Virus record (IMG/VR): IMGVR_UViG_3300010883_013602
Coordinates: 1-23,610 of that record
Strand: one strand, 5' to 3'
From: a virus
DNA length: 23,610 nucleotides
Shown: positions 8,274-23,357 of the stretch, one piece after another
How positions within the stretch are numbered: the first letter of the stretch is position 1
How the letters are laid out: each line of letters starts with the position of its first letter
Program-made: the position numbers and the translations under genes
The notes under the pieces: model-generated
What the model saw: the letters and a program-made list of their open reading frames with translations, nothing else
Databases searched by the model: none
Told to the model about the DNA's origin: nothing

Positions 8274-8731
8274 TCTGTAATGATTTTCCTAAAAACTACA
8301 CACATGTAAGCATTTCTACTCATATGTTCACTGAGTTTACCCTCATGTAGGAATCTAATTCTACCCATTATAGGATAATATGATGCATATGGTTGTATGA
8401 ATTCATGCCAATATTTACTACTACATGTGTTTGCTGGTATAATCATCATAACATTGATATTATGTTTTTTCCACTCATTACATGCTTTTTCTACAAATTT
8501 ACCTGTCATTGAATGTGGAGGATTTACCCATGCATCTACAGTCCAACTACATAAAAGACCGTCAACATTGACTCCAAAGAAATCCTGACATTTTTTATTA
8601 TCAACATTTGCACATACATCTATCTTTGGTTCTATAGCATGTGTGAAACAAAGTTCTTTGTATAATTGTGTAGGTGTCTCATAGTCATCACTTAATGACA
8701 GTTTGCTTCTAGGTTTTTGATGTAGTTCCAA
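8258..8731 (-). CDS. Phage-type DNA N6-adenine methyltransferase (Dam family)
   Basis: 157 aa. The DDYETPxxL motif (15-23), DVCA with a following N-K-K-C segment (38-48), DGLLCSWTVDAWVNPPHS with the catalytic NPPH (about 69-72) and a MIIPA...YWHE stretch match the compact phage DNA adenine methylase family (PF05869-like). It methylates adenine in viral DNA, possibly for restriction evasion or packaging control. The only start that includes the conserved N-terminus is TTG 8731, which lies within the ACTAGT element of the opposite-strand promoter. Confidence 0.85.
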   Translation of the reverse strand: MELHQKPRSKLSLSDDYETPTQLYKELCFTHAIEPKIDVCANVDNKKCQDFFGVNVDGLLCSWTVDAWVNPPHSMTGKFVEKACNEWKKHNINVMMIIPANTCSSKYWHEFIQPYASYYPIMGRIRFLHEGKLSEHMSRNAYMCVVFRKIITDQSQL

Positions 8732-8748
8732 CTAGTAACTCTTATAAA
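8731..8748 (+). promoter_or_regulatory. ACTAGTAA-TATA promoter, copy 1
   Basis: ACTAGTAACT followed by CTTATAAA; TATA centre about 26 nt before ATG 8771. CTTATAAAG reads as CTTTATAAG on the other strand, so it could also serve leftward transcription toward the methyltransferase, though the spacing to TTG 8731 is short. Confidence 0.75.
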
Positions 8749-8770
8749 GAAGTAACTAATAAGACTTGTT

Positions 8771-9178
8771 ATGGGAACAACAATAAGTGCAAAGTTTGAT
8801 GGATCTTGTAAGATCTGTGGAGAATCTTGGAGTATAGGTAAACAAATATTTTACCAAAAAACACCAAAGGCTATCTGTGTTGATAAAGACTGTTTCTTAC
8901 AACAGGGAGGCACAGTTGGTGATTTTAAACAAAAAGCATTCGGAAACCCCTCAAATATAATCATAACACAAATACCAGAAGTTAAGGTCTCAGAAGACAC
9001 TATAAAAATTGGTAAGTTATGGCAACAGTATTTTAAAGAGGCACACGAATTAACCAAGATGGTTTATCCAAAAGAAGACGTTCAGAGCGATAGGTTTGGT
9101 ATGATTAGACAAACTGTATTGAATCAACTAGTACACCTAGCTGGTGTTGTAGTTGCAAAACAAAATAGTTTAGATTAG
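8771..9178 (+). CDS. Zinc-ribbon protein of unknown function, 135 aa
   Basis: Leaderless ATG start, 26 nt after the TATA box. The N-terminal domain has C13-x2-C16...C36-x4-C41 around a GESWSIGKQIFY hairpin, a zinc-binding cap of the type found at the start of several phage-encoded DNA-associated proteins. Residues 80-135 are helical, with no catalytic motif (KLWQQYFKEAHELTK, then a second helix). It opens the ACTAGTAA-controlled part of the genome and lies close to replication genes, so a DNA transaction role is plausible but unproven. Confidence 0.65.
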   Translation: MGTTISAKFDGSCKICGESWSIGKQIFYQKTPKAICVDKDCFLQQGGTVGDFKQKAFGNPSNIIITQIPEVKVSEDTIKIGKLWQQYFKEAHELTKMVYPKEDVQSDRFGMIRQTVLNQLVHLAGVVVAKQNSLD

Positions 9179-9179
9179 T

Positions 9180-9196
9180 ACTAGAAACCCTTATAT
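9180..9196 (+). promoter_or_regulatory. ACTAGTAA-TATA promoter, copy 2 (variant ACTAGAAA)
   Basis: ACTAGAAACC-CTTATAT directly after the stop of the previous gene; TATA centre 27 nt before ATG 9220. Confidence 0.7.
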
Positions 9197-9219
9197 CCTA
9201 GTATATCAATAGGCTATTA

Positions 9220-9570
9220 ATGAATGTTTCAGAAGTACTGGATATTTCCAGTTCACAAGGAGATCACTCTACTCCATTGGAAGTAGGGGAAAAAATTGTC
9301 ATTCAGAGTTTCAATATCAAACATGTTGAACAACTTGGTGCTGATGTAGCAGAAATCAAAACTACAGATGGACTAAGACACTCATTTGCAAAAGCAGTTG
9401 TCGGTCAAGCAAAATCCGATTACTGGATTGATGTAGTTGAGAAATGTGTTGATAAAGATGCATCTGACGGACTCGACTGTTATGTTGTTGAACGTATCTC
9501 GGATAAAACTGATAGACCTATGATTTGTTTATCTATGTTTCCGAAGAACCAAAAGAAAAAGCAACAATAA
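9220..9570 (+). CDS. Hypothetical protein, 116 aa, beta-rich
   Basis: Leaderless ATG start. The sequence alternates short beta-type stretches (EKIVIQSFNIKHV, DVAEIKTTDG, YVVERISDK) and ends in a basic KNQKKKQQ tail. The layout is compatible with a small beta-barrel or OB-like fold that contacts nucleic acid, but no signature confirms it. A T-run immediately after the stop suggests its own terminator and a single-gene transcript. Confidence 0.6.
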   Translation: MNVSEVLDISSSQGDHSTPLEVGEKIVIQSFNIKHVEQLGADVAEIKTTDGLRHSFAKAVVGQAKSDYWIDVVEKCVDKDASDGLDCYVVERISDKTDRPMICLSMFPKNQKKKQQ

Positions 9571-9575
9571 CTTCC

Positions 9576-9583
9576 TTTTTTTT
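9576..9583 (+). terminator. T-run after the 9220-9570 gene
   Basis: Eight consecutive T residues begin 6 nt after the stop codon, in a C/T-rich then TTA-repeat context. Archaeal RNA polymerase commonly terminates at such runs. There is no hairpin. Confidence 0.4.
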
Positions 9584-9592
9584 ATTATTATT

Positions 9593-9691
9593 ATGATTCC
9601 TAAAGATTGTATGAAATGTGGAGCAAATGTTGTAGAAACAAAATCACAAAGTAAAATATTAATATGTGAAATATGTGAGTATGTGCAATAA
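9593..9691 (+). CDS. Mini zinc-ribbon protein, 32 aa
   Basis: ATG-initiated frame with C6-x2-C9 and C25-x2-C28, one complete four-cysteine ribbon. Its stop TAA overlaps the next ATG (TAATG), which argues for translation and coupling. No good TATA box at 26 nt; it may be read through from the upstream transcript. Confidence 0.55.
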   Translation: MIPKDCMKCGANVVETKSQSKILICEICEYVQ

Positions 9692-9807
9692 TGAATCAAG
9701 AATGTCCTAAATGTGGATTTGAAATGAAGAATATGACAACCTGTCATTTAATATGCCCTAATTGTGGCTCACACCTAGATTGTTCAGATAAAGGCAGTTT
9801 TTGGTAG
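9691..9807 (+). CDS. Mini zinc-ribbon protein, 38 aa
   Basis: Translationally coupled to the previous mini-gene. C5-P-K-C8, C18, C22-P-N-C25 and C31 are present; CPxCG knuckles on both sides make a rubredoxin-like or transcription-factor-type ribbon. It ends two bases before the next ACTAGTAA promoter. Function unknown. Confidence 0.6.
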   Translation: MNQECPKCGFEMKNMTTCHLICPNCGSHLDCSDKGSFW

Positions 9808-9825
9808 ACTAGTAAATCTTATATA
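9808..9825 (+). promoter_or_regulatory. ACTAGTAA-TATA promoter, copy 3
   Basis: ACTAGTAAATCTTATATA, identical over 18 nt to the copy at 11957-11974. The TATA centre is about 28 nt before ATG 9851. Confidence 0.8.
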
Positions 9826-9850
9826 CTTGTTAATTTGATGTAAGTGTAGA

Positions 9851-10378
9851 ATGAAGATTAATTTTTCAACTGAAAATATAAATAAAAAAGAATATGAGAG
9901 ATTAATATTACATTATATTTATGAACATTATCACCACACAGATCATACTAGATTACAGAAACAGGATGACTGGACTATTAATATTAAAAGAACAGACCAA
10001 TATAATCAAAAATTTTATAGTGATGACCCAAGATTAGCAGAGTTAGATTTTAGTATTCCTCATGGGGTTACTGGTGAAGGTGAAGTTGTATGTTATATTA
10101 CAGATAATCCAAACAATATGGTTACATTACAAAACATGTCTGTAATATGTCATGAATTAGCACATATGATACTTATGATATACTTTAGAGATAGAATTAC
10201 TGAGATGAGACATAACGATTTTCATGGTAAAAAGGGTGATAAACGCAAGTTTTTTAGCTGTGAAGTGCATGATAGGGTCACAGAAGGTAGGGTAAAACAG
10301 TTCAGATATAGGTTTACAAGATATATTGGTGTAGATATATCTGATTTAACGAATACTAGGAAACAAAGAAGACATTGA
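9851..10378 (+). CDS. HEXXH metallopeptidase-like protein, 175 aa
   Basis: H101-E-L-A-H105 within VICHELAHMILMI, preceded by a hydrophobic helix. H121 or H125 (RHNDFHGKKGDK) is a candidate third ligand. No signal peptide, so it should act inside the host. The N-terminal ~90 residues are beta-rich with no known domain. Possible roles are prohead maturation or degradation of a host protein (inference). The stop overlaps the TTG of the next gene. Confidence 0.65.
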   Translation: MKINFSTENINKKEYERLILHYIYEHYHHTDHTRLQKQDDWTINIKRTDQYNQKFYSDDPRLAELDFSIPHGVTGEGEVVCYITDNPNNMVTLQNMSVICHELAHMILMIYFRDRITEMRHNDFHGKKGDKRKFFSCEVHDRVTEGRVKQFRYRFTRYIGVDISDLTNTRKQRRH

Positions 10379-10674
10379 AGTGGGAACAATTACCAAATGG
10401 TAAATGGAAACCATTAAAAGAATTTAAAAAAAGTGCTGATGGTAAATATTCACCCGATGATCCAGTCTATAAGGCAAGGGCATTAAAAGCAATGAAAAAA
10501 GTAATTCTAAATTGTGATGTTTGTGGTAATTCAACATTAGCAGAACCATGTGTACATCATTTACCAGATGGATATCAAAATGAAATGAGGAAAAAATCCT
10601 ATAGGAAAGCAATGAAAGATTCTAAATCAATAACTGATAAAAAAACAAATGGAGTATTAACTAGTAACTCTTAA
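10375..10674 (+). CDS. Small basic zinc protein, 99 aa
   Basis: TTG 10375 overlaps the TGA of the metallopeptidase gene (TTGA), and the product starts MKWEQLPNGKWKPL. A central knuckle C47-x2-C50...C59-x-H-H is a plausible zinc site flanked by lysine-rich helices. The last residues, TSNS, are encoded by the next ACTAGTAA promoter, so the 3' end of this gene is shaped by that element. Function unknown; basic composition suggests nucleic-acid binding. Confidence 0.55.
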   Translation: MKWEQLPNGKWKPLKEFKKSADGKYSPDDPVYKARALKAMKKVILNCDVCGNSTLAEPCVHHLPDGYQNEMRKKSYRKAMKDSKSITDKKTNGVLTSNS

Positions 10675-10678
10675 ATAG
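10660..10678 (+). promoter_or_regulatory. ACTAGTAA-TATA promoter, copy 4
   Basis: ACTAGTAACTCTTAAATAG lies across the end of the preceding coding region; TATA centre 26 nt before ATG 10699. Confidence 0.8.
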
Positions 10679-10698
10679 ATAGAGTTGGTGTATGGATT

Positions 10699-11502
10699 AT
10701 GGTATTTGCAAAGAAATGGACAATAGACCTTGAAAAAAAGGATGATATAGTACACTTAGAACCACTAAGTGATATTCATATCGGGCATGTAGGTTTTGAT
10801 GAGGAACTTTATAAAAAACGAATTAAAGCCATTGCTAAAGATGACAATAGGTATACATTATTTATGGGAGATCAGTTGGATGCAATAACTACATTCGATA
10901 AAAGATTTAACCCTGATATGTCAGTAGAACATGATGTTGATAATCAGAGAAAAGTTTGGCAAACATTATCTCAACCATTAATAGATGTTCATCATCATTC
11001 AAATAATGAGAAAATTGGAGGGCTTCTGCATGGAAATCACGAATATAATATTAGAGAAATAACTAGAGCATATATTGAGAATCAATTTTGTGAACCAAAT
11101 GGTATTCAGTTTCTTGGTAGTAGAGCAATTATAGGTTTAGAAATAACTTATAAAAAGAAAGTTATGGGTCAATGGACTATATTAGCAATACATGGTTCAG
11201 GTGGTGGTAAACCAGAAAGAATGTTTGATCAGATGAAAAAGAACGTCTATGCAGATATATTCCTTTGTGGTCACTTACATCAAAAACGTTATACACCAGA
11301 AATGGTAAATGACTTTGACTTTGAGACTGGTAAACGATGGGAAAGAGAAATTCACCTAGTAAATGCTGGTACTTTCTGTCACACAGTAGTAGACCAGACC
11401 GATGGTTATATGGATAGGAAAAATGAATTAGTATATGGTCAAACAGGTACAGCAACTTTGTCAATCGATGCAATGAATGGTAAGGTGGTTGGACATATCT
11501 AG
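10699..11502 (+). CDS. Calcineurin-like metallophosphoesterase
   Basis: 267 aa with all the family's metal motifs in order: D25-x-H27 (SDIHIGH), G57-D58 (MGDQLD), G112-N-H-E115, H165 (AIHGSGGG) and G191-H-L-H194. This is a two-metal phosphodiesterase or phosphatase fold; viral members act on DNA, RNA ends or nucleotides. It has no MRE11-type capping domain and no partner Rad50 gene, so an SbcD role is not supported. Leaderless ATG 10699; an out-of-frame ATG lies at 10692. The winged-helix gene overlaps its 3' end by 26 nt. Confidence 0.85.
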   Translation: MVFAKKWTIDLEKKDDIVHLEPLSDIHIGHVGFDEELYKKRIKAIAKDDNRYTLFMGDQLDAITTFDKRFNPDMSVEHDVDNQRKVWQTLSQPLIDVHHHSNNEKIGGLLHGNHEYNIREITRAYIENQFCEPNGIQFLGSRAIIGLEITYKKKVMGQWTILAIHGSGGGKPERMFDQMKKNVYADIFLCGHLHQKRYTPEMVNDFDFETGKRWEREIHLVNAGTFCHTVVDQTDGYMDRKNELVYGQTGTATLSIDAMNGKVVGHI

Positions 11503-11743
11503 GATAGTTCGTAACAATAAACGTACCCTAGATACTCAGATTCCTTCACCAATTCGTGTACCAAGAGTAAAAAACACTGATAAAGTTATAGAAACATTAG
11601 AATATTCTAAATGTCCGTTGACTTTTACAGAAATATTATCAACTACTAAGATAAAAAGTAGTGGTAACTTACACAATGTTTTAAGAAACCTTATAAACGA
11701 TAATAGAATTTCAAGGAATTCTGACTTATATAATCTCATATAA
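11477..11743 (+). CDS. Winged-helix DNA-binding protein, 88 aa
   Basis: ATG 11477 lies within the end of the phosphoesterase gene. Residues about 34-88 show a helix (DKVIETLEYSKCPLTF), a turn, a recognition helix (SGNLHNVLRNLINDNRI) and a wing/strand end (SRNSDLYNLI), the pattern of a compact winged helix. Residues 1-33 are basic (RIVRNNKRT, PSPIRVPRVK). Likely a transcription regulator; no cysteine and no other domain. The stop TAA abuts copy 5 of the promoter element. Confidence 0.6.
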   Translation: MVRWLDISRIVRNNKRTLDTQIPSPIRVPRVKNTDKVIETLEYSKCPLTFTEILSTTKIKSSGNLHNVLRNLINDNRISRNSDLYNLI

Positions 11744-11760
11744 CTAGCAATTCTTAAATA
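11743..11760 (+). promoter_or_regulatory. ACTAGTAA-TATA promoter, copy 5 (variant ACTAGCAA)
   Basis: ACTAGCAATTCTTAAATA starting on the last base of the previous stop codon; TATA centre about 25 nt before ATG 11782. Confidence 0.75.
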
Positions 11761-11781
11761 CCCTAATTGTGTTAACATTAC

Positions 11782-11952
11782 ATGTTTATCGAGATTTCAT
11801 GGAAAAATAAAAAAGGAGACACCTTACGATCATTTATAGAGTCAACTAAGGTGCAAGGTTTCATTAATTCTTTCGTTGAAAGAGAGGTAGAACCAACACT
11901 AACAATGCCTGATGAAGTAACATTAGAGTCACAACCAGTATTGCAAGCATAA
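11782..11952 (+). CDS. Hypothetical protein, 56 aa
   Basis: Leaderless ATG at the distance predicted by the TATA box. The product (MFIEISWKNKKGDTLRSFIE...) has a short beta-strand followed by a helix (STKVQGFINSFVEREV) and an acidic tail ending VTLESQPVLQA. No family recognised. Its own promoter, the absence of other genes on that transcript, and the following promoter 5 nt after its stop make it a credible single small gene. Confidence 0.6.
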   Translation: MFIEISWKNKKGDTLRSFIESTKVQGFINSFVEREVEPTLTMPDEVTLESQPVLQA

Positions 11953-11956
11953 AATC

Positions 11957-11974
11957 ACTAGTAAATCTTATATA
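11957..11974 (+). promoter_or_regulatory. ACTAGTAA-TATA promoter, copy 6, with no ORF downstream
   Basis: ACTAGTAAATCTTATATA, identical to copy 3. The predicted transcription start is about 11997. The next protein gene, 12351, has its own promoter, so this one appears to drive the structured RNA at 11997-12150. Confidence 0.8.
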
Positions 11975-11996
11975 CTAGTTACACACTCTATTTTTT

Positions 11997-12150
11997 GTCT
12001 GTCAGGGATTATCCTAATACGATAGCTCTCTTAAGACAACTAACCAACATAGGAAAGAACGAAAAGGGAATCCATCGGTTAGTGGATAACTGCCCTGAGT
12101 AGGCGAAATATATCGGTAAAAGGTGTAGAGGCACTATTACTTATTTCTCA
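11997..12150 (+). ncRNA. Candidate structured non-coding RNA with pseudoknot
   Basis: A viral promoter points into a stretch without a credible ORF that folds well by eye. P1 pairs 12003-12007 with 12093-12097 (CAGGG/CCCTG) and continues, after a small internal loop, as 12009-12014 with 12084-12089 (TTATCC/GGATAA). P2 pairs 12039-12045 with 12077-12083 (ACTAACC/GGTTAGT) and abuts P1. In the 3' domain, 12105-12110 pairs with 12142-12147 (GAAATA/TATTTC) and 12116-12119 with 12137-12140. The bulge TATCG (12111-12115) complements CGATA at 12020-12024, a possible pseudoknot. The predicted 5' end falls just before P1. I do not recognise the class; it is not a tRNA, 5S rRNA or standard RNase P RNA. 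Confidence 0.65.
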
Positions 12151-12163
12151 ATTCCTATCTTAA

Positions 12164-12170
12164 TTTTTTT
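12164..12170 (+). terminator. T-run terminator of the candidate RNA gene
   Basis: A run of seven T residues about 15 nt after the last predicted helix of the candidate RNA, in the expected place for archaeal termination. Confidence 0.45.
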
Positions 12171-12174
12171 CAAA

Positions 12175-12275
12175 GGTTAACTAAACTAATAACTAACTCA
12201 TTTTATTAGCTATTAACTAACTCTAAACATTAACTAACTCCTTGATCTATCTCTTAACTATTAACTTAACTAATA
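12175..12275. repeat. G-poor iterated TTAACTAACTC repeats; candidate origin region
   Basis: TAACTAACTC occurs exactly three times (12190-12199, 12214-12223, 12231-12240), and TTAACTA/TTAACTTAA variants fill the surroundings (for example 12177, 12254, 12261). The top strand is almost free of G for about 100 nt. The tract lies between the RNA gene and the MCM operon. Iterated short repeats in an AT-rich, strand-asymmetric tract beside the replicative helicase are typical of replication origins; function here is inference. Confidence 0.5.
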
Positions 12276-12311
12276 AAAATTTCAATGTTAATACATTATT
12301 AGCTAACATCT

Positions 12312-12330
12312 ACTAGTAAGCCTTTTATAT
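12312..12330 (+). promoter_or_regulatory. ACTAGTAA-TATA promoter, copy 7 (replication operon)
   Basis: ACTAGTAAGCCTTTTATAT; TATA centre about 25 nt before ATG 12351. It drives the DNA-binding protein-MCM-RadA operon. Confidence 0.8.
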
Positions 12331-12350
12331 CATACTAGAATAAAGGTAGC

Positions 12351-12683
12351 ATGCAGTTCAATCGAAACACAGTAACACTGTCAGTAAGTCAAAATGCAAT
12401 TCCTATTTTTGAATCGCTAAACCAGATCAAACCTGAGAATGTCAGTTTTAGTCTATTTTTAGCAGAAGTTGCAAATGACTTTGTACAAAAGAATAGAAAG
12501 TCAGCAAAGTTAACAGACTTTGATCATGAGGATGTAACAGCAGAATTACCACTGTTCTATGCCAGTATATCAAAATGGGAAAAACATGTATGTGCTTTAG
12601 ATGCTGAGGACTTTAAGAAATTACAGAGACGATTATCTCAACTAGGAAATCTAATAAGCAAGGAAACTGAGAAACGATTATGA
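12351..12683 (+). CDS. Small putative DNA-binding protein (RHH-like), 110 aa, upstream of mcm
   Basis: Leaderless ATG. The start reads as a strand (NTVTLSVS) and two helices (NAIPIFESLNQI, SFSLFLAEVANDFVQKN), an RHH-like arrangement, followed by a helical C-terminal region (FKKLQRRLSQLGNLISK). It is co-translated with mcm through ATGA. A protein binding the adjacent repeats at 12175-12275 as an initiator or as an autoregulator would fit this position (inference). Assignment to RHH is by pattern only. Confidence 0.55.
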   Translation: MQFNRNTVTLSVSQNAIPIFESLNQIKPENVSFSLFLAEVANDFVQKNRKSAKLTDFDHEDVTAELPLFYASISKWEKHVCALDAEDFKKLQRRLSQLGNLISKETEKRL

Positions 12684-14635
12684 TGACCATGACCGATTCA
12701 GCAGTTCAAGATGCTATATATGAAATCCTTAATTATAGAGAATGGAATGATAAGTTATCAGGATTAAGACCTACTGATACTGTCACAATAGACATATCTG
12801 ATGAAAAATTCATCGATCTATACATTCAACGTCAAGGTGACTTTATTACATTACTAAGACAAGCAATATACAGAGTATTACAGCAAAGATTTGTAGGCGT
12901 GGATATACCTACAGCCTTTGGTTCATTAAAAATCAAACTTACATCTGGTGATGTCATACATATGAGGGAAATTAACTCTAAAAAGGAGGGTGAAACCATA
13001 TGTTTTGAAGCTACAGTTATTGCAACTGATGCACCAAAAACCTATATCAAGACTGCCGAAATGGAATGTGCAAAATGTTTTACTACAGAGAAAGTAACAT
13101 GTGGTTTTGACAGAACATTACCTACCTTATTTTGTATGAGTTCTGGTTGTGGTAGGTCTAAAATGGATGTTACTAAGAAGGGTATTCTAACAGATGATAT
13201 TCAAACAATATTATTACAACAACCATTAGAGAATGCAGACAACAATTCACCAATACTATTCTATGGTAAACTAATAGGTGATAATGTAGGTACTTCTTTT
13301 ATCGGACAGAGAAAAAGAATAGTTGGTATATTTAGATCAGTTATTAAACCAAAAGATGAAGAACATGAAGTCATTATTGATATACTATCAATAAATGATC
13401 TGGATGATAATAGAGATCTCGTACCTACTCATGAAGAGAAACTAAAACTATTAAAGGAATGTAAAGATGATGACTTTGTTGAGAAACTAATTCATAGTTA
13501 TGCACCTGATATTTTTGGGTATGATGACATTAAACTGTCATGTTTGCTCCAATTAGTAGGGGGTGTCAAGACAAAGAAGAGGGGTGACATCAATATTTTA
13601 CTAGTGGGTGACCCATCAATGGCAAAATCTGAACTGTTAAAGTATGGTAAAAGTATAACACAAAAATCAGTATACACCTCTGGTAGAGGTTCTACAAGTG
13701 CTGGACTAACTATCGGTATGGTAAAATTATCTGATGGTAGAATGGTAGCACAAGCTGGTGTATTACCTCTCTGTTCAGGTGGATATGCATTCATAGATGA
13801 GTTTGATAAGATGAATAAAGATGATAGATCTTCCATGCATGAAGCAATGGAGCAACAAACAGTAAGTATTGCAAAAGCAGGGATATCTTTAACACTTGAT
13901 GCAAAAACAAGTATTATGGCAGCAGCAAATCCAAAATTTGGTAACTATGATCCAGACCTATCATTAATGGATAACATAAACATACCTAGTCCATTACTGT
14001 CAAGATTTGATTTGATATGGTTAATTAGAGATGCTGTAAATGTAACAGAGGATTTACAAAAAGCTAATCACATACTTGATGGGTTTGATAATACTCAGAA
14101 AGACAGTGAATGTAGATTTACTGATCGTGAACTTACAGCATTTATTAATGAAGCAAAAAAATGCACACCAAAAATTACCAAAGAAGTGAGGGATGAGATA
14201 GTAAGTATATATGAAAAACTCAGACAATCAACTGATAAGGAATTAAATGTAGGTATTAGACAGCTTGAAGCCATGATTAGATTATCAATGGCTCATGCTA
14301 AACTAAGGTTTAGAGACTCTGTAGAAATTGATGATATTAATGCAGTTAAAGGTCTATTAGTAAAGATGTTTGATAACTTTAACATTGATATCTTACAAAA
14401 TAAGAGCTCACAACAGACACTTATTGGTAGTTCTGGTAGAATGTCTAAACAACAATTACACCTACACATATGGGATCAATGTAAGGATAGTGATGGATGT
14501 GTTAAAATGAACGAGTTCTTTAAAAGACTTGCATCCGAAGGTATAGATGAGTTGGAAAGACAAAAGATATTCGGTAACTGGGAAAAAACTAATCAAATAA
14601 AGGTGATGTCAAATGGTACGTGGAAAAGAACATAA
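12680..14635 (+). CDS. mcm: MCM replicative DNA helicase
   Basis: 651 aa. N-terminal domain with a zinc site C130-x2-C133...C152-x4-C157. AAA+ domain with Walker A G310-D-P-S-M-A-K-S317, Walker B FIDEFD (D373/E374), sensor 1 around AAANP (414-418) and arginine finger S441-R-F. A C-terminal winged-helix region follows residue 580 (QLHLHIWDQCKDSDGCVKMNEFF). MCM forms a hexamer that unwinds DNA 3' to 5'. Length is close to that of cellular archaeal MCM, so it appears intact. It is co-translated with the small protein before it and overlaps radA by 23 nt. Its presence suggests the virus drives its own replication fork; no polymerase or primase gene is in the window. Confidence 0.95.
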   Translation: MMTMTDSAVQDAIYEILNYREWNDKLSGLRPTDTVTIDISDEKFIDLYIQRQGDFITLLRQAIYRVLQQRFVGVDIPTAFGSLKIKLTSGDVIHMREINSKKEGETICFEATVIATDAPKTYIKTAEMECAKCFTTEKVTCGFDRTLPTLFCMSSGCGRSKMDVTKKGILTDDIQTILLQQPLENADNNSPILFYGKLIGDNVGTSFIGQRKRIVGIFRSVIKPKDEEHEVIIDILSINDLDDNRDLVPTHEEKLKLLKECKDDDFVEKLIHSYAPDIFGYDDIKLSCLLQLVGGVKTKKRGDINILLVGDPSMAKSELLKYGKSITQKSVYTSGRGSTSAGLTIGMVKLSDGRMVAQAGVLPLCSGGYAFIDEFDKMNKDDRSSMHEAMEQQTVSIAKAGISLTLDAKTSIMAAANPKFGNYDPDLSLMDNINIPSPLLSRFDLIWLIRDAVNVTEDLQKANHILDGFDNTQKDSECRFTDRELTAFINEAKKCTPKITKEVRDEIVSIYEKLRQSTDKELNVGIRQLEAMIRLSMAHAKLRFRDSVEIDDINAVKGLLVKMFDNFNIDILQNKSSQQTLIGSSGRMSKQQLHLHIWDQCKDSDGCVKMNEFFKRLASEGIDELERQKIFGNWEKTNQIKVMSNGTWKRT

Positions 14636-16820: not shown

Positions 16821-16853
16821 TTATGACGTAAATCCCTTTATCACGCCCACAAC

Positions 16854-16872
16854 ATTAGTCAATCTTTTAATA
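16854..16872 (+). promoter_or_regulatory. Degenerate ACTAGTAA-TATA promoter
   Basis: ATTAGTCAATCTTTTAATA resembles the repeated element, with two changes in the upstream box; TATA centre about 25 nt before ATG 16894. Confidence 0.5.
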
Positions 16873-16893
16873 CATAATAATCTTTCTAATAAT

Positions 16894-17320: not shown

Positions 17321-17444
17321 TCTTAGTAACCTCCCTATAACATTTTTCACATAATGTCAATGCATCAAATTTTATTGGTTCAACTGGTAGATCACAAGTT
17401 AAACAAATATGACAGAATTCACAATATTCTACTGTCTCACTCAT
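17313..17444 (-). CDS. Mini zinc protein, 43 aa
   Basis: ATG overlaps the stop of the upstream gene (ATGAGTGA), and the stop overlaps the next start. Six cysteines in CxxC register (C8, C11, C14, C17, C32, C35) make one or two metal sites, ferredoxin- or ribbon-like. Overlaps on both sides and cysteine spacing strongly favour a real gene. Function unknown. Confidence 0.6.
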   Translation of the reverse strand: MSETVEYCEFCHICLTCDLPVEPIKFDALTLCEKCYREVTKNV

Positions 17445-17730: not shown

Positions 17731-17984
17731 TACACCTTGTTCGCAAATGCATATTCATGCATTGATAGTTGTCGTTTTAATCCGTCATCATCCATTTCAT
17801 CGAAATATTCCTTTTTATCCTGATGCATGGGTATCCACAAACTTTTTTGTAGTTCAATTATTCTTTTTATTGTTTTACTTCTACTAAAAACCATTTCTTT
17901 AACCAATGATTCTAAATCTTCATCGGTTATAAGTTCTGTGGCTTGTTCTGCTGTAATATTTTTATTTTTTATTTGTGTGATCAT
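17730..17984 (-). CDS. Hypothetical helical protein, 84 aa
   Basis: Start placed at ATG 17984, about 24 nt after the TATA box of the leftward promoter at 18005-18023; a GTG at 18005 would lie upstream of the predicted transcript start. Helices NITAEQATELI, EDLESLVKEMVFSRSKTIKRIIELQ and DDDGLKRQLSMHEYAF. First gene of a five-gene leftward operon ending at 17105. Function unknown. Confidence 0.6.
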   Translation of the reverse strand: MITQIKNKNITAEQATELITDEDLESLVKEMVFSRSKTIKRIIELQKSLWIPMHQDKKEYFDEMDDDGLKRQLSMHEYAFANKV

Positions 17985-18004
17985 TACTGACTTTATTGAT
18001 CGCA

Positions 18005-18023
18005 CTATTTAAGTGTGTCTAGT
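18005..18023 (-). promoter_or_regulatory. ACTAGACA-TATA promoter, copy 8, inside the end of a gene
   Basis: Minus-strand ACTAGACACACTTAAATAG encodes the last residues and the stop codon of the VWA gene, while acting as promoter for ATG 17984. Confidence 0.75.
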
Positions 18024-19657
18024 ACTGCATTTCTAAATCTATTTGCCACTATAATACCACCATCATCCATATCTCTAACATGTATCACTTTACTTTTACC
18101 AAATACATCTTCAAGTATTCTACCACCCCATACATCTATACCTACTGACAACACAACCATTTCATTTGCTTGTCTTTTTGCTTTTAATGCTGCTTTTTTA
18201 TTCATTTTTAACAAAGTTTTTGCTGATATGTTGTAACCATAGTTTTGATACTGTGGTTGACCATCTGTTATTAATATTAATAATTTCTTTCTACCCTTCA
18301 TATGTTTCATCATTTTTGATGCATAATCTAATGCTAAATGGGTAGGTGTCATGTTGAAACCATACTTATTCTCTATAGATATCATTGCACAATCACCAAC
18401 TTCATTAATATCAGTCATACCTACTTCACCTTTACCATTACTAGACCAAACATTTGCTTTTAGATCTATATTTTTATAATCTTTAACAGAGTCAAAAAGT
18501 GTAGCAACTAAGTCTCTTACTTTTATCATTTTTTCATTCATTTTCATTGATGCAGAACCGTCTATTGATATCATGACAGATAAACCATGAGTTATTTTCT
18601 TATCAATAAAACAATTATTTATATCATAACCTCTAATTTTACCTTCAATATAAGATTCCATATCTATCTCATTACCATCATAACCTATGGTACTTTTTGG
18701 TATTTCAGATATGTTTCTAAACACTCTTCTTAAATTATGTGATACATGTTTATCAATATTATATTCATTCCTTAGTCTTTGTAGAGGTCTTAAATAAGCT
18801 GGTTTAATTATAGTATGTTTAGCATTCTCACTCATTGAATCCCTTAATTCATCTATCTCTATTTCACCGTCTTCTTTAGACTCTTTAATAGAATTTTCAT
18901 AATCTTGATCATCATTAAGATCATCAATAAAATTAGTATCGTCTTTAAGTGGATCAGATTTGAGCTGATCTACATCACTACCATCATACGGTTCTTTAAT
19001 ATGTTCAACAGGATTTGAACCACCATCTAATTCATTATCAACCCACTCATCAATTATTGGTTTTAATCTTTTTAATAAAATCAATGCACCAAGTCTACCC
19101 AAACTATGTACATCCTCTAATGCCTTCTTATAATCCTCAAAGTGTTTATGTTCAATAGCTAGATCTTCTCTGAAAAATCTAATATTTAATATAATATCAA
19201 CAGGATTAGATGAACATTTCACATGCATTTTACCTCTATTAGTTCTGGCTTTAATGAATCTCTTTTCATTTGCTAGCCATAGATTAGCCATTAATGATTC
19301 TATACGCTGATCTTCTAGTATATTAAATACATTCCAGTACGTTCTCTCTCTAGTTTTGTTTCCACTATCAGATACACCCTCACACCATCGATCAACAAGT
19401 TTTTTACCATCAGCTATAGGTGTACTCATAATAATATGTCCTAACTCATGGTTAAAAGCAGTGAATTTTTCAATACCTTTTACTGCTGGTGTTGCAACAT
19501 TAAGTATAAATTTTCTACCATTAAGTTCTTTATCCATAACCTTGTTATCATCATTCCAAAATACAACATCTATTTTACAATCTCTCATATGTTCAGCAAT
19601 ATCAGAGGTCTTCCTAAAGAACTCTTTATCACTTAGTAAATCTCTATCTCTAGCCAT
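18005..19657 (-). CDS. CobT-like protein: HEXXH domain plus VWA domain, 550 aa
   Basis: N-terminal zincin-like domain: H70-E-L-G-H74 in FTAFNHELGHIIMSTP, with a later E115-D-Q-R-x-E120 helix that could supply the third ligand. Residues 204-280 are an acidic linker. The C-terminal von Willebrand A domain has a complete MIDAS: D366-G-S-A-S370, T437 (NMTPTH) and D465 (LITDGQP). This layout matches metallopeptidase-VWA proteins related to CobT, which pair with MoxR/CobS AAA+ ATPases to remodel target complexes. The partner ATPase is encoded nearby at 20408-21355. The ATG shares a base with the stop of the preceding 72-aa gene. Confidence 0.85.
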   Translation of the reverse strand: MARDRDLLSDKEFFRKTSDIAEHMRDCKIDVVFWNDDNKVMDKELNGRKFILNVATPAVKGIEKFTAFNHELGHIIMSTPIADGKKLVDRWCEGVSDSGNKTRERTYWNVFNILEDQRIESLMANLWLANEKRFIKARTNRGKMHVKCSSNPVDIILNIRFFREDLAIEHKHFEDYKKALEDVHSLGRLGALILLKRLKPIIDEWVDNELDGGSNPVEHIKEPYDGSDVDQLKSDPLKDDTNFIDDLNDDQDYENSIKESKEDGEIEIDELRDSMSENAKHTIIKPAYLRPLQRLRNEYNIDKHVSHNLRRVFRNISEIPKSTIGYDGNEIDMESYIEGKIRGYDINNCFIDKKITHGLSVMISIDGSASMKMNEKMIKVRDLVATLFDSVKDYKNIDLKANVWSSNGKGEVGMTDINEVGDCAMISIENKYGFNMTPTHLALDYASKMMKHMKGRKKLLILITDGQPQYQNYGYNISAKTLLKMNKKAALKAKRQANEMVVLSVGIDVWGGRILEDVFGKSKVIHVRDMDDGGIIVANRFRNAVLDTLK

Positions 19658-19875
19658 TATTTAGTCTCATATACTCCGTCTCTTATTTTACCAGCATACA
19701 TCTTATATTTTGGACTTTTATATTTACCAGCTTTTGCTAACACCATTAATGTGATATTTTTAGGATATTCTTTAGGGTGTGCAATACATGTACATAGCAT
19801 ACACATATTATATTTAATCCAGCATCTTTTACCAGTTTTTACTTTAAATGATCTTTGACAGTTTTTACATCTCAT
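19657..19875 (-). CDS. Zinc protein, 72 aa, co-translated with the VWA gene
   Basis: Leaderless ATG about 26 nt after the leftward TATA box at 19895-19914. C3-x2-C6, C18, C25-x2-C28 and C30 form a cysteine cluster in a basic N-terminal half; the C-terminal half is Lys/Tyr-rich (AGKYKSPKYKMYAGKI). It is the first gene on the VWA transcript, and its stop overlaps the VWA start, so it may be an accessory factor of that system. Family unknown. Confidence 0.65.
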   Translation of the reverse strand: MRCKNCQRSFKVKTGKRCWIKYNMCMLCTCIAHPKEYPKNITLMVLAKAGKYKSPKYKMYAGKIRDGVYETK

Positions 19876-19894
19876 AATAAGGTATATATTCTAT

Positions 19895-19914
19895 CATATT
19901 AAAGTGTGTCTAGT
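19895..19914 (-). promoter_or_regulatory. ACTAGACA-TATA promoter, copy 9
   Basis: Minus-strand ACTAGACACACTTTAATATG; its TAG is the stop codon of the preceding gene. TATA centre about 26 nt before ATG 19875. The first 12 bases are identical to copy 8. Confidence 0.75.
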
Positions 19915-20134
19915 AATCAATTTCATCGCCACAGTTATCACAAGTATACATTTGAACCTCATCCTGACCATCAAATACATAGTCAGAACTATGGTGACAC
20001 TGGTGATTACATCCATGATCTAATGCATTAGAGTTTTCACTAGCACCTAACACCTCAAGTATTTTATCTAATTTAATATTAATTATTTTTATTCTCTCAT
20101 TCATTATTCTTAATTTATCAGTCAAGTTGTTCAT
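19910..20134 (-). CDS. Coiled-coil plus zinc-site protein, 74 aa
   Basis: Start chosen at ATG 20134, which overlaps the end of the upstream gene by 17 nt; a longer frame from 20302 merely reads through that gene in another frame and is low complexity. Residues 5-28 are a heptad-like helix (TDKLRIMNERIKIINIKLDK). The C-terminus carries C42, H44, C46, H47, H48 and a C65-x2-C68 pair. Possibly an oligomerising zinc adaptor for the AAA+/VWA module (inference). Confidence 0.55.
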   Translation of the reverse strand: MNNLTDKLRIMNERIKIINIKLDKILEVLGASENSNALDHGCNHQCHHSSDYVFDGQDEVQMYTCDNCGDEIDY

Positions 20135-20411
20135 CCCTCCATCTATCATAAGCATCTGGGTCTTCACCATCATCACCATCATTACATACTTGACATCCTT
20201 CAATACTCTCATCCTCACCTCTACCATAGTCACAGAATCTCTCACCGTCACATTCAGGACATGTATCTTTACACCCACACCCACATGGAATTTCAGTGTC
20301 ACCGTCTTTGTTTAATTTTAAATACCAACAATGTAAGCATAATTCTTTATCTGGTGAAGGTACTTCTTCAAAGTTATGAACGTTTTTACAAAAAAAGGAA
20401 CGAGGGGTCAT
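20118..20411 (-). CDS. Cys-rich acidic protein, 97 aa
   Basis: ATGA overlap with the AAA+ gene stop. Cysteines at 25, 28, 43, 45, 47, 51, 54, 60, 73 and 76 suggest two or three zinc sites. The CGCGCKxxCPxC stretch recalls DnaJ-type or rubredoxin-like knuckles and resembles the CQCGCKxxEICxxC segment of the 22524 protein. The end is strongly acidic (DGDDGEDPDAYD). Translational coupling suggests it serves the AAA+ ATPase, for instance as substrate adaptor. No family name can be given. Confidence 0.65.
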   Translation of the reverse strand: MTPRSFFCKNVHNFEEVPSPDKELCLHCWYLKLNKDGDTEIPCGCGCKDTCPECDGERFCDYGRGEDESIEGCQVCNDGDDGEDPDAYDRWRDEQLD

Positions 20412-21355
20412 TTGAATGACACCCCAAATGTTTCCTGTACTCTAGCCTTAATCAACTCATGTTCATTAGGGTCTGTATACTTTATCATTATTGTTTCTTT
20501 GATGGTATCAAGTAACACATTACTAACAATGTTAGGATCATCATCACTATAATCACTCAACAAGTCACGATAAACATCTACGAACTGTATAATATCTCTA
20601 GGAGATAATACATATTCTATATCACCCTTAGTTCTTAGACCATATGTGTCTTGTGCGAATGTCAATAATGGATTTTGTACTGTACTTTCTGGTATTTTAT
20701 CCCAATCAATAATTAGTTTTAATTGTTCTGATTTTGGGTAATCCCATACTCTACCTATGAATCTAGATCTTAGATCCTCTGTAAGGTTATTTACACCAGC
20801 ATATTCAATCGGATTAGTTGTTGCAATGATAGCAAGTTTACAATTTTTATTTAAACTGTAAGTTCTACCACCAGCAGTACAACTATTTCTCTTGTCAAGT
20901 GGTCTATTCAACCATTTTTGCATGTCGTGGTCTAATGCACCAACTTCATCCAAATACAACACAAGGTGTCCAAAGTGATTTGCTGTCTCAAAAGCAGTTG
21001 GTAAAAGACCTCTCTCAAAATACGAGCCATCTTTATCTACCTGTAATCTACCTTCAAGTTTAGCATGGTTTGTACCAGCACTACAGTTTATCTCTACTAA
21101 AGCATACCCTTTTGACTTACATATGGCATGTACTAGGGCAGTTTTACCAATTCCCTTTGCACCATATATTAAGTAAGGCATCGTGGCTCTTTCGATAACA
21201 TTCTCTAAACGTTTTCTTTCACCAGCTAAGTCAACATACTCACCCATGTCATCGATATTCTCTGATGAATAGAGATCAAAATTTATCCTATTAACACGGT
21301 CTTCTGCATCATTACCTGTTATTGGTGTTTCGAGAAACTTTACTTCTTCGCTCAT
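20408..21355 (-). CDS. CobS/MoxR-like AAA+ ATPase
   Basis: 315 aa. Walker A G65-A-K-G-I-G-K-T72, Walker B LVLYLDE (D136/E137), sensor 1 ATTN (178-181), arginine finger region L195-R-S-R-F199 and a sensor-2-type SPRDI late in the protein. The EGRLQVDKDGSYFERGLL stretch (101-118) is characteristic of the CobS/MoxR branch. These ATPases work with VWA partners; here the partner is probably the protein at 18005-19657. Homologues in marine viruses are often labelled cobaltochelatase CobS, but no cobN or other cobalamin gene is seen here. Leaderless ATG 25-30 nt after its TATA box. Confidence 0.85.
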   Translation of the reverse strand: MSEEVKFLETPITGNDAEDRVNRINFDLYSSENIDDMGEYVDLAGERKRLENVIERATMPYLIYGAKGIGKTALVHAICKSKGYALVEINCSAGTNHAKLEGRLQVDKDGSYFERGLLPTAFETANHFGHLVLYLDEVGALDHDMQKWLNRPLDKRNSCTAGGRTYSLNKNCKLAIIATTNPIEYAGVNNLTEDLRSRFIGRVWDYPKSEQLKLIIDWDKIPESTVQNPLLTFAQDTYGLRTKGDIEYVLSPRDIIQFVDVYRDLLSDYSDDDPNIVSNVLLDTIKETIMIKYTDPNEHELIKARVQETFGVSFK

Positions 21356-21376
21356 TGAATAGTTATTATTTTAATA

Positions 21377-21395
21377 TTATATAAACAGTACTAGT
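21377..21395 (-). promoter_or_regulatory. ACTAGTA-TATA promoter, copy 10 (AAA+ operon)
   Basis: Minus-strand ACTAGTACTGTTTATATAA, TATA centre about 26 nt before ATG 21355. It lies 10 nt from the rightward copy 11, forming a divergent promoter pair. Confidence 0.75.
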
Positions 21396-21405
21396 AGTTC
21401 ATTGT

Positions 21406-21423
21406 ACTAGACACTCTTAAGTA
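21406..21423 (+). promoter_or_regulatory. ACTAGACA-TATA promoter, copy 11
   Basis: ACTAGACACTCTTAAGTA; TATA centre about 27 nt before ATG 21446. Divergent to copy 10. Confidence 0.75.
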
Positions 21424-21445
21424 CTATAATTATACCAGTATCTGA

Positions 21446-21655
21446 ATGGGAGTAGGAGTATGTAAGGGACAGTGTTACTTGAAATATAGAGCACCAATAG
21501 GAAAGAGAACCTATCTACATGGAGGTAGACGATGCTCTGAATGTGCGTTGTTTCTTAAATGGGATGGTGTATACTGTCCTTGTTGTGGCACAAAACTACG
21601 TCACAAGATAAGATCCAGAGCCACACCTATATGCATGTACAAGGGAAGGTACTAG
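21446..21655 (+). CDS. Zinc protein, 69 aa, paralogue of the 17105 product
   Basis: Leaderless ATG. C6-x-G-x-C10, C30-x2-C33 and C44-x-C46-C47 are followed by a basic helix (TKLRHKIRSRA). Order and spacing mirror the leftward protein at 17105-17320. Its stop codon TAG lies within the next ACTAGTAA element. Probably a nucleic-acid-binding zinc ribbon; function unknown. Confidence 0.65.
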   Translation: MGVGVCKGQCYLKYRAPIGKRTYLHGGRRCSECALFLKWDGVYCPCCGTKLRHKIRSRATPICMYKGRY

Positions 21656-21668
21656 TAATTTTTAAATA
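21651..21668 (+). promoter_or_regulatory. ACTAGTAA-TATA promoter, copy 12
   Basis: ACTAGTAATTTTTAAATA includes the stop codon of the previous gene; TATA centre about 26 nt before ATG 21690. Confidence 0.8.
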
Positions 21669-21689
21669 CCATATAATTAATGATAAAAC

Positions 21690-21923
21690 ATGTTAGAAAG
21701 AAAGATAATTGATGATAGAATTGAGAGATTCATTGACATGGTTCAAACAGAAGTTATAGATGACATAAGAGAACATGTACATTCGTCTATCAATAAAAAT
21801 GATGAGAAGCATATGGTTATGAAACTATTGGCTAAACCCATAACAGACTATGTAATAGCTATGACAATAGACAACTTATTAACAAAAGAACTACTAGATC
21901 CAAAGGAGATTATAGATGAGTGA
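21690..21923 (+). CDS. Hypothetical helical protein, 77 aa
   Basis: Leaderless ATG. Entirely helical by appearance (IDDRIERFIDMVQTEVIDDI, then KHMVMKLLAKPITDYVIAMTIDNLL), acidic, without cysteine. It is first gene of a rightward operon of overlapping mini-genes. No family recognised; could be a dimerising regulator or anti-host factor. Confidence 0.55.
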   Translation: MLERKIIDDRIERFIDMVQTEVIDDIREHVHSSINKNDEKHMVMKLLAKPITDYVIAMTIDNLLTKELLDPKEIIDE

Positions 21924-21972
21924 ACGTGCTGAATGGGCGTGGCTTGTGGAGGATGATGATGATGATGACTAA
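21916..21972 (+). CDS. Possible 18-aa peptide ending in six aspartates
   Basis: ATGAGTGA overlap with the preceding gene. The peptide (MSERAEWAWLVEDDDDDD) ends in a hexa-Asp run encoded by the GATGATGAT repeat that in another frame provides the start codons of the next gene. It may be a real micro-peptide or a coupling leader that carries ribosomes to the next start. Confidence 0.3.
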   Translation: MSERAEWAWLVEDDDDDD

Positions 21973-22144
21973 ATGTTCACTCTGTGATCAGGAGTTTGAT
22001 ACATCTGATCCTTTAATTGAAGTTAGAAAGCAGAGACATGTACTAGGTATGCACTCTACAAATAGAGTAATATATTCAGAACGTGACGGATCAGCATCCA
22101 AACCCCTAGGTAATCACATATATGGTGAGGTAACATGGCAGTAG
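21959..22144 (+). CDS. C2H2-type mini zinc finger protein, about 60 aa
   Basis: Five in-frame ATG codons in a row (21953-21967) follow a GGAGG ribosome-binding site at 21948-21952. The third, 21959, has the best spacing and is used here; 21965 is the last possible. The product begins MTKCSLCDQEF, and with H-x4-H about 17 residues later (RHVLGMH) forms a classical C2H2 finger. Its stop is 10 nt inside the next gene. Function unknown. Confidence 0.6.
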   Translation: MMMTKCSLCDQEFDTSDPLIEVRKQRHVLGMHSTNRVIYSERDGSASKPLGNHIYGEVTWQ

Positions 22145-22329
22145 GTAAGATAAAAATTAAGAGGTGTCCTGAATGTCTTAAGATATTTACATTCATATCA
22201 TCACCTACAAACAATAGAAGGAGATACTGTACAGATGAATGCAGAATGGCTTATAGAACAATAAGTTCTAAACCAAAGATAGTAACTATGCGTGATTTTG
22301 AAATTAATCAAATGTTTGGTGATAAATGA
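22135..22329 (+). CDS. Mini zinc-ribbon protein, 64 aa
   Basis: C11-x2-C14 and C32-x3-C36 (YCTDECRMAYR) form one site with the same spacing style as the proteins at 6668 and in the third module of 1160. Basic N-terminus (KIKIKR). ATG overlaps the previous gene, and the stop overlaps the next start as ATGA. Likely nucleic-acid binding. Confidence 0.65.
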   Translation: MAVGKIKIKRCPECLKIFTFISSPTNNRRRYCTDECRMAYRTISSKPKIVTMRDFEINQMFGDK

Positions 22330-22448
22330 TGTCCATAGAACCATGCCCAAAGTGTAAGAAAGCAAGTGGATACGAATGGATATGGGGGAAGAATGATGGT
22401 CATTCTACTGGATATTCTAAATGTAAGTCATGTGATGCTAAGTTTTAA
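22326..22448 (+). CDS. Mini zinc-ribbon protein, 40 aa
   Basis: ATGA overlap with the preceding gene. C7-P-K-C10 and C33-x2-C36 flank an aromatic turn (YEWIWGKNDGHSTGY), a zinc ribbon of the type seen in TFIIS- or Ogr-like domains. A long T-rich tract directly after the stop should end the transcript. Confidence 0.6.
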   Translation: MMSIEPCPKCKKASGYEWIWGKNDGHSTGYSKCKSCDAKF

Positions 22449-22503
22449 TTTATTTTTATTTTATTTTTTTTAATTTGTGACTATATAGGGGTACTTAAGC
22501 GTT
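22449..22503 (+). repeat. T-rich tract plus ATAGGGGTA element, repeat copy A
   Basis: A run of T-rich sequence (terminator for the zinc operon) is followed by ATAGGGGTA (22485-22493) and TACTTAAGCGTT (22492-22503). The same order, T-rich tract then ATAGGGGTA then an AAGCGTT element, recurs at 23361-23409. The copies flank the three-gene leftward operon and the second RNA candidate. Confidence 0.55.
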
Positions 22504-22523
22504 ACTAACCATAACAAAAAAAA

Positions 22524-22727
22524 TCAGTCCAAGTCGTTGTATGACTCGTACCTGTCTGCTAGTTGTTGTACTTTGCATTCTTCACAAAGTCCCTCTTCAA
22601 GTAAATCCATTGTGAATAGTTGTTCACACCCATCACATATTTCAGGCTCTTTACACCCACATTGACATTCTACTTGGTTTTTTCTTGACCATTCATGTAA
22701 TGATTCACCTTTTACTGGTGCTATCAT
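22524..22727 (-). CDS. Cys-rich zinc protein, 67 aa
   Basis: C21-x-C23-x-C25...C31-x2-C34 and C48-x2-C51 give one or two zinc sites; the CxCGC knuckle resembles that of the 20118 product. The C-terminus is acidic. ATGA overlap with the upstream gene makes it the last gene of a three-gene leftward operon. Confidence 0.6.
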   Translation of the reverse strand: MIAPVKGESLHEWSRKNQVECQCGCKEPEICDGCEQLFTMDLLEEGLCEECKVQQLADRYESYNDLD

Positions 22728-22924
22728 GGTGCATGTTTCCTATAAACTCTGGTGATTTTAACATCAACATACCCTTCTTGCAACATTAGGTTAGCTATTC
22801 TAGTAGCCATGTCCCTTACATGATCTAAATTCTTCATGTCTCTTTGTACTATTGCAAAGTATTCAGGCTTACCTTCTGTTTCTATACCAGTTACTCTGTA
22901 TGTTGTATAGTTATTACCCATCAT
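22724..22924 (-). CDS. Hypothetical protein, 66 aa
   Basis: Middle gene of the operon, with ATGA overlaps at both ends. It reads beta-strand (TTYRVTGIETEG), strand (EYFAIVQRD), helix (VRDMATRIANLMLQEG), strand (VDVKITRVYRK), a small alpha/beta fold like many phage orphan proteins. No known motif. Confidence 0.6.
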   Translation of the reverse strand: MMGNNYTTYRVTGIETEGKPEYFAIVQRDMKNLDHVRDMATRIANLMLQEGYVDVKITRVYRKHAP

Positions 22925-23112
22925 TTACCATCTCTTAAGGATTCAGCATTGTTAATACATTCATCAAGTGATCTATGTAGTATAGTTCTAATAGCATCTA
23001 TTTTCATACCATTGGTATTAAGATAGTATGCAGAACTAGTACATATTTCAGAAAATTCTTGTTGAGCTTTCTTAACATCTTTCTGTATCTCTTCATTTGT
23101 ATGCAATTTCAT
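22921..23112 (-). CDS. Hypothetical helical protein, 63 aa
   Basis: First gene of the operon; ATG 23112 lies about 29 nt after a TATA-like TTTAAGTA on the minus strand. Two helices predicted (EEIQKDVKKAQQEFSEI, KIDAIRTILHRSLDECINNA). No family recognised. Confidence 0.6.
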   Translation of the reverse strand: MKLHTNEEIQKDVKKAQQEFSEICTSSAYYLNTNGMKIDAIRTILHRSLDECINNAESLRDGK

Positions 23113-23136
23113 TATAACAAGTATAGAACATACTGA

Positions 23137-23146
23137 TACTTAAAGG
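23137..23146. promoter_or_regulatory. TATA-like element usable in both directions
   Basis: TACTTAAAGG / CCTTTAAGTA. Leftward it suits the operon starting at 23112. Rightward it would start RNA near 23165-23168, at the 5' arm of the first hairpin of the RNA candidate. Confidence 0.45.
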
Positions 23147-23161
23147 TAGATAGTAAAATCT

Positions 23162-23318
23162 TAGGAGGATACCGTCTGTGTAGAGCGTTTTCTGCCACTC
23201 GGGTATTCCTCGAAACTAGTCTGTCCTCCAAGCCTCATGATCACTTGTTAGACACTAGGTTTCATGAGTTTTTAGTTTTGATAAGTCTAAAGATATCTCA
23301 TGTAACGTGAAGACTTGC
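23162..23318. ncRNA. Candidate structured RNA 2 (strand unresolved)
   Basis: A 200-nt gap without a credible ORF holds several helices: 23165-23173 with 23202-23211 (GAGGATACC/GGTATTCCTC, one bulge), competing with 23164-23169 and 23224-23229 (GGAGGA/TCCTCC); 23234-23240 with 23262-23268 (CTCATGA/TCATGAG, perfect); and 23283-23288 with 23311-23316 (AAGTCT/AGACTT). A consensus ACTAGTAA promoter at 23340-23357 reads leftward into it, start near 23318. Rightward reading is also possible: a TATA at 23137 and a hairpin followed by five T (23269-23273), and the inner pair 23298-23302/23306-23310 includes a wobble that favours the plus strand. Class unknown. Confidence 0.5.
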
Positions 23319-23339
23319 AATTAAACTAATACATAATAC

Positions 23340-23357
23340 TACTTAAACCTTACTAGT
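23340..23357 (-). promoter_or_regulatory. ACTAGTAA-TATA promoter, leftward, with no ORF downstream
   Basis: Minus-strand ACTAGTAAGGTTTAAGTA, a good match to the repeated element. The only frame near the predicted start is a 22-codon TTG frame, so the product is more likely the structured RNA. Confidence 0.7.

Follow-up and report, generated by a model that had tools for sequence, protein, structure and literature searches.

The stretch of DNA analysed in this study is a 23.6-kb IMG/VR virus record (23,610 nucleotides, hereafter the window) encoding a large terminase subunit, an MCM helicase, RadA, a CobS-like AAA+ ATPase and a VWA protein. Many of its genes are preceded by a composite promoter motif in which an 8-mer, the ACTAG-box, is joined to a TATA box. 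The closest cellular RadA sequences (~42% identity) all belong to ammonia-oxidising archaea, nearly all of them Nitrosopumilales, and the host of the virus is therefore probably a member of this order. IMG/VR yielded relatives in the records G001-G007 and in many contigs with an MCM gene. For the VWA protein, the phages collection contains no relative. On the best reading, the box-bearing group is a clade of tailed viruses whose hosts are marine ammonia-oxidising archaea (Nitrosopumilales).

Form and frequency of the composite motif

The motif is one rigid 18-bp unit, consisting of the 8-mer box, exactly two nucleotides and YTTAWATA. An earlier note on this DNA had listed 13 clear copies (nine on the plus and four on the minus strand) and a weak one at 16854, and all of them are present at these coordinates. 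It had allowed a spacer of 2-3 nt, of which only the lower value stands: the spacer is 2 nt in every copy, and a pattern search with 3 nt matched none of them and recovered nothing real. Among the 13 copies, the box is spelled ACTAGTAA seven times and ACTAGACA three times, while ACTAGAAA (9180), ACTAGCAA (11743) and ACTAGTAC (21395) are each used once. The 8-mer alone is mildly enriched in the window (12 observed, 5.75 expected; equalled in one of 100 shuffles). The composite was scored with a leave-window-out matrix, built from five other viruses and applied to the window at a threshold of at least 14 bits. This yielded 15 sites against 0.15 per shuffle, with a shuffle maximum of 1. The motif is thus far commoner than in shuffled sequence, and it also avoids coding interiors: across six viruses, three sites lie inside open reading frame (ORF) interiors (119 kb) and 75 outside (66 kb).

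We refer to promoters of the box-bearing type as class-I promoters and give distances to the start codon in nucleotides, counted from the first TATA base. On the plus strand, the promoter at 8731-8748 (ACTAGTAA-CT-CTTATAAA; matrix match) lies 30 nt before gene 8771 and has orthologous promoters in four ACT-clade viruses; in the relatives G003 and L047 this box reads GTTAG and AATAG, respectively. Plus-strand copies with both a matrix match and orthologues are located at 9180-9197 (ACTAGAAA-CC-CTTATATC; gene 9220), 9808-9825 (ACTAGTAA-AT-CTTATATA; gene 9851, 33 nt), 10660-10677 (ACTAGTAA-CT-CTTAAATA; phosphoesterase gene 10699, overlapping the 3' end of the ORF at 10375-10674), 11743-11760 (ACTAGCAA-TT-CTTAAATA; gene 11782), 12312-12329 (ACTAGTAA-GC-CTTTTATA; a ribbon-helix-helix (RHH)-like gene, MCM and RadA) and 21651-21668 (ACTAGTAA-TT-TTTAAATA; gene 21690, 29 nt). 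The copies at 21406-21423 (ACTAGACA-CT-CTTAAGTA; gene 21446, 30 nt) and 11957-11974 (ACTAGTAA-AT-CTTATATA) are matrix matches as well; the latter has the same 18 nt as the copy at 9808, as the note had reported, and stands upstream of a putative structured RNA and no ORF. The weak copy at 16854-16871 (ATTAGTCA-AT-CTTTTAAT) precedes gene 16894 by 30 nt.

On the minus strand, the promoter at 18006-18023 (ACTAGACA-CA-CTTAAATA; matrix match) falls inside the VWA gene, at its 3' end, and serves the gene at 17984-17730; the same box is kept there in most close relatives. The promoter at 19897-19914 (ACTAGACA-CA-CTTTAATA; matrix match, orthologues) serves the gene at 19875-19657 and a VWA/CobT-like gene. 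The promoter at 21378-21395 (ACTAGTAC-TG-TTTATATA; matrix match, orthologues), divergent to that at 21406, lies 30 nt before the CobS-like AAA+ gene 21355, and the one at 23340-23357 (ACTAGTAA-GG-TTTAAGTA; matrix match) precedes no ORF and would drive a putative leftward RNA. Three related copies were absent from the earlier list: a variant at 23414-23431 on the plus strand (ACTATCAA-CG-CTTAAGTA; gene 23453, 29 nt; matrix match), a weaker one at 23137-23154 on the minus strand (ACTATCTA-CC-TTTAAGTA; gene 23112, 32 nt; 9.9 bits) and one at 6628-6645 on the plus strand (AATAGAAA-CC-CTTTTATA; 15.0 bits), which is uncertain because its ATG sits 40 nt downstream. Two similar stretches, 22486-22516 and 23391-23431, both open with ATAGGGGTA, contain AAGCGTT and overlap box-like sites (22509, minus strand, and 23414, plus strand).

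A start codon follows 11 of the 13 listed copies, ten at 29-30 nt and one, at 9808, at 33 nt; behind the copies at 11957 and 23357, no ORF begins at such a distance. The note had given about 24-28 nt after the TATA centre; counted from the first TATA base, the value is 29-30 nt. This spacing resembles that of host genes. Because the start codon is located 29-30 nt past the first TATA base, the transcripts are probably leaderless and start at or beside the start codon. A simple expectation-maximisation run on regions upstream of the longest ORFs performed poorly, owing to wrong start calls, and gave no host motif; it was replaced by TATA-anchored, ATG-distance-filtered logos.

Conservation at orthologous promoters and lineage switch

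The motif recurs in related viral genomes upstream of orthologous genes. Relatives keep the box ahead of the nuclease, gene 8771, gene 9220, the phosphoesterase, gene 11782 and the RHH-like-MCM unit. Retention reaches relatives whose MCM is ~57% identical, and viruses with an MCM ~50% identical or less are without the box. Across lineages the core TAGTAA stays, while the two outer bases change jointly. They are AC in 53 of 55 promoters of the window clade and in 5 of 6 of G004, TC in L024 (2/2) and GC in L027-L029 (3/3). In G003, the first outer base is G in 13 of 13 promoters and the second T, A or G, with GTTAGTAA as the G003-type counterpart of ACTAGTAA; G007 and L047 together have any base followed by A (second outer base A in 7 of 8). 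None of 5000 permutations equalled the observed uniformity of these prefixes within genomes. The ACT-clade sequences are kin to one another, but the 13 promoters of G003 precede unrelated genes of one genome. The relative L030 does not have the TAG box; at two of its promoters, a possible other box, TTCAGNTA, stands ahead of TTTATATT.

Scarcity of the box in host genomes

Across eight virus records, one offset to the TATA box accounts for 51 occurrences of ACTAG and any other offset for 0-2; in 1.1 Mb of host loci, ACTAG was not found at the favoured offset. Likewise, TAGTAA followed by a gap and TATA occurs in the viruses 34 times at a gap of 2 and at most once at any other gap from 0 to 5, and was absent from 1.84 Mb of host sequence. 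The exact pattern TAGTAA-NN-CTTAWATA has two matches among 151 Nitrosopumilaceae genomes. One of these is on a virus contig (L245, G124:C199, from a Nitrosopumilaceae genome bin), which carries the nuclease, the terminase and their neighbours in virus order and appears to be either a mis-binned virus or a provirus. In 0.7 Mb from two Nitrosopumilales genomes, host promoters that share the TATA-to-ATG distance have no conserved TFB recognition element (BRE) and no box, which strongly supports the proposal that the box is more specific than an ordinary BRE. In an exact scan of IMG/VR, every contig with several copies belonged to this clade; the others were singletons, mostly without a properly spaced start codon.

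Two promoter classes

The note had described the promoter as virus-wide. This does not hold for the relatives, in which the box is missing from the promoters of the structural module and marks one promoter class. The classes were compared in virus records that include structural genes, with matches to portal, head protease, tail tube and tape measure defining the structural block. The box is present at 86 of 122 non-structural promoters and at 1 of 26 structural ones (P 1.2e-10), the sole exception, in G007, appearing to be located at the block boundary. Conversely, TC directly 5' of the TATA box is found at 18 of 26 structural against 9 of 122 non-structural promoters (P 7e-11), and structural promoters also have A at -3. 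The resulting form, AA-TC-TTTAWATA, is common to L056 (G003), L063 (G006) and L067 (G007) and, judged by its sequence, is a second and different promoter class for head and tail genes.

Candidate readers of the box

No TFIIB or TBP was detected in the viruses: PF00382 and PF00352 had no match in any of eight records, and PF08271 gave nothing above cut-off, although the records may be fragments. A first candidate is the RHH-like protein at 12351-12683 (plus strand), whose gene lies beside MCM in nearly all relatives examined. Its monomer model (pLDDT 77.5) has helices at residues 17-25 and 33-48 after an extended N-terminal stretch and no strand. An RHH fold is suggested by this model together with a weak CopG sequence match (E 0.6) and a weak TraM fold match (Z 3.2); a Foldseek search with the model gave nothing significant. 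G003 and L047 have different boxes but an identical N-terminus of this protein, and so do G004 and L024; the protein cannot alone account for the outer bases and was rejected as sole reader. A second candidate is a basic, Cys-rich (CxxC...CxxC) protein of 72 aa at 19657-19875 (minus strand), chosen by its presence pattern across contigs: wherever a box-bearing contig spans the locus the protein is present, and contigs without the box never have it. Because a single gain could explain this distribution, it serves as no more than a lead. Two further proteins were set aside. A winged-helix-like protein at 11477-11743 (plus strand), with a weak TFIIE-beta match, is almost confined to the close clade, and it is missing from G003 and G004, which argues against a general reader. 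The ORF at 7155-7394, considered as an RHH reader, has its own promoter without the box, belongs to a family also present in non-box viruses and gave a poor model.

Discussion

In this study, the proposal of a composite promoter with the box fused to the TATA box found strong support. The motif is not described in the papers searched, and no report of it was found in that literature, while its kind, a virus-specific archaeal promoter element, is already known; we regard it as a real and strong element of this kind. Its unusual parts are the concerted lineage switch and the partition into two classes. When positions are numbered from the first TATA base, the box covers -10 to -3 and its outer ACTA -10 to -7. 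The bases that archaeal TFB prefers in the BRE are G at -6 and A at -3 (PMC11065993). In the non-structural promoters of the ACT-clade, the frequencies are 0.61 for G(-6) and 0.85 for A(-3), and in G003 they are 0.81 and 0.71. TAGTAA therefore holds a canonical strong archaeal BRE, and only the outer ACTA is extra. The earlier suggestion that the box sits where TFB contacts DNA thus fits the inner half, with the outer ACTA lying beyond that zone.

We consider it probable that the motif defines one of two promoter classes, used by host TBP, TFB and RNA polymerase together with a regulator that the virus encodes and that acts on the outer box. The host TBP would bind the TATA box and the host TFB the inner half (G at -6, A at -3), and transcription would begin at or beside the start codon to give leaderless mRNAs. 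The outer half NNTA (-10 to -7 from the TATA box, about -40 to -37 from the start) would be the site of a virus-encoded DNA-binding regulator, either an activator or a repressor. Replication, accessory and small-RNA genes would in this way be controlled together and apart from the head and tail genes with their own AA-TC-TTTAWATA promoter. A virus protein is expected as the reader because host genes are without the box and its spelling shifts as a set between virus lineages; the idea of a virus-encoded factor, raised in the note, accords with both observations, and the reader itself was not found. More tentatively, this could be a new promoter-specificity factor, encoded by the virus and unrelated to TFB, which reads the outer box beside the BRE and steers the polymerase of the host to a single class of genes; we regard this as possible but short of probable. 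Its specificity would have shifted between lineages along with a dozen or more promoters each time.

Several points weigh against a virus-encoded regulator of one gene class. No regulator for the outer box has been identified, and the RHH-like protein is kept in viruses without the box too, with a putative DNA-binding N-terminus that is alike in G003 (GTTAG) and L047 (NATAG). About 30% of the non-structural promoters are without the box. In relatives, the terminase-leading operon also begins at a box promoter (nuc), which means that the class extends beyond early or replicative genes, and the "early" timing of the boxed genes is suggested by gene content only.

The whole box might instead be an extended BRE read by host TFB alone, perhaps by one Nitrosopumilales paralogue, with virus promoters that are merely optimised and lineage differences that come from the TFBs of the respective hosts. 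The agreement of G(-6) and A(-3) with the canonical BRE (PMC11065993) is in line with this, as are the several TFB genes per host genome (6-18 TFIIB-repeat matches, usually two repeats per protein) and the negative TFB and TBP searches of the virus records. However, no host promoter class has the element, given the two matches in 151 genomes and the same-geometry host promoters devoid of a conserved BRE. Moreover, the bases that depend most strongly on lineage lie at -10/-9, beyond the BRE, and the structural promoters of the same virus do without the box, yet they too need host TFB. We therefore hold this explanation to be rather unlikely. A sub-case of the virus-encoded regulator, on which we are equally doubtful, is that the box is the operator of a repressor that overlaps the BRE and brings about later shut-off. 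Occupancy of such a site would block TFB, and precedents exist in Aca8, proposed to act on SIRV2 early promoters (PMC11065993; SIRV, Sulfolobus islandicus rod-shaped virus), and in RHH factors (PMC5569661); however, no repressor was identified, and an activator adjacent to TFB would give the same sequence pattern. Chance, a compositional artefact or a by-product of the TAG stop codons that close genes in an AT-rich genome can be dismissed: the 8-mer alone is just two-fold enriched and several copies adjoin or overlap the 3' end of the preceding gene, but the fixed 18-bp register, the fixed start-codon distance, the conservation at orthologues in relatives and the copy ahead of a conserved non-coding RNA refute it.

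The closest known case is given by the early-gene regulatory sequences of SIRV2 and other Sulfolobales viruses, in which the regions flanking the core differ between viruses, read by the authors as different regulators (PMC11065993). As in SIRV2, a genome-wide viral core of BRE and TATA (TTTAWATA) is common to co-regulated genes (PMC11065993), and the combination of a conserved core with a conserved flank across many genes of one virus was found here too. Unlike SIRV2, the present viruses are of another kind (tailed), have hosts of another phylum (Nitrosopumilales) and are known from sequence alone. Their additional element, a rigid box joined to the BRE, drives replication genes and a structured RNA as well, and the structural genes are marked by a second promoter class. 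The GTC element of SIRV1 and SIRV2 (Kessler et al. 2004, as cited in PMC5569661) is similarly a virus-specific short element on ordinary TATA/BRE promoters; here the word is different and located upstream of the TATA box. No conserved trinucleotide or word was found downstream of the TATA box in these viruses, and the upstream consensus NNTAGTAA is without GTC. Halovirus HF2 also has repeated promoter-bearing sequences across the genome of a tailed archaeal virus; those repeats are intergenic and 29-58 bp long, whereas here only 18 bp are conserved, with lineage-wide switches (PMC8707807).

In the middle promoters of bacteriophage T4, the MotA box is a short upstream word, read by a virus co-activator beside the basal factor, that sets a temporal class. 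This is an analogy only, as the MotA box belongs to a bacterial sigma-factor system; no homology is implied, and no such factor was identified here. The present data provide a transcription map, drawn from sequence, for uncultured viruses of marine ammonia-oxidising archaea, with two promoter classes, probable leaderless starts and putative small RNAs. Because the box switches in concert, it can be tested directly whether its reader is a virus factor or a host TFB paralogue, and the box is usable as a metagenome signature of this virus clade.

Non-coding RNAs and neighbouring stretches

Five viruses retain the 11957 promoter, with no long ORF following it. The stretch behind it, 11997-12175 (plus strand; transcription start placed by geometry), is a putative structured non-coding RNA: in the five viruses, 9 of 25 pairs have compensatory changes, and no Rfam match was obtained in the window. 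A non-coding RNA behind the box would favour a promoter over a translation signal. A second ORF-less stretch, 23160-23318 (minus strand), follows the class-I promoter at 23357; it aligned poorly to relatives and is possibly a structured RNA. Between the first RNA and the RHH-like-MCM operon, an AT-rich stretch at 12175-12310 contains repeated TTAACTAACT-like words, is also present in relatives and represents a possible replication origin.

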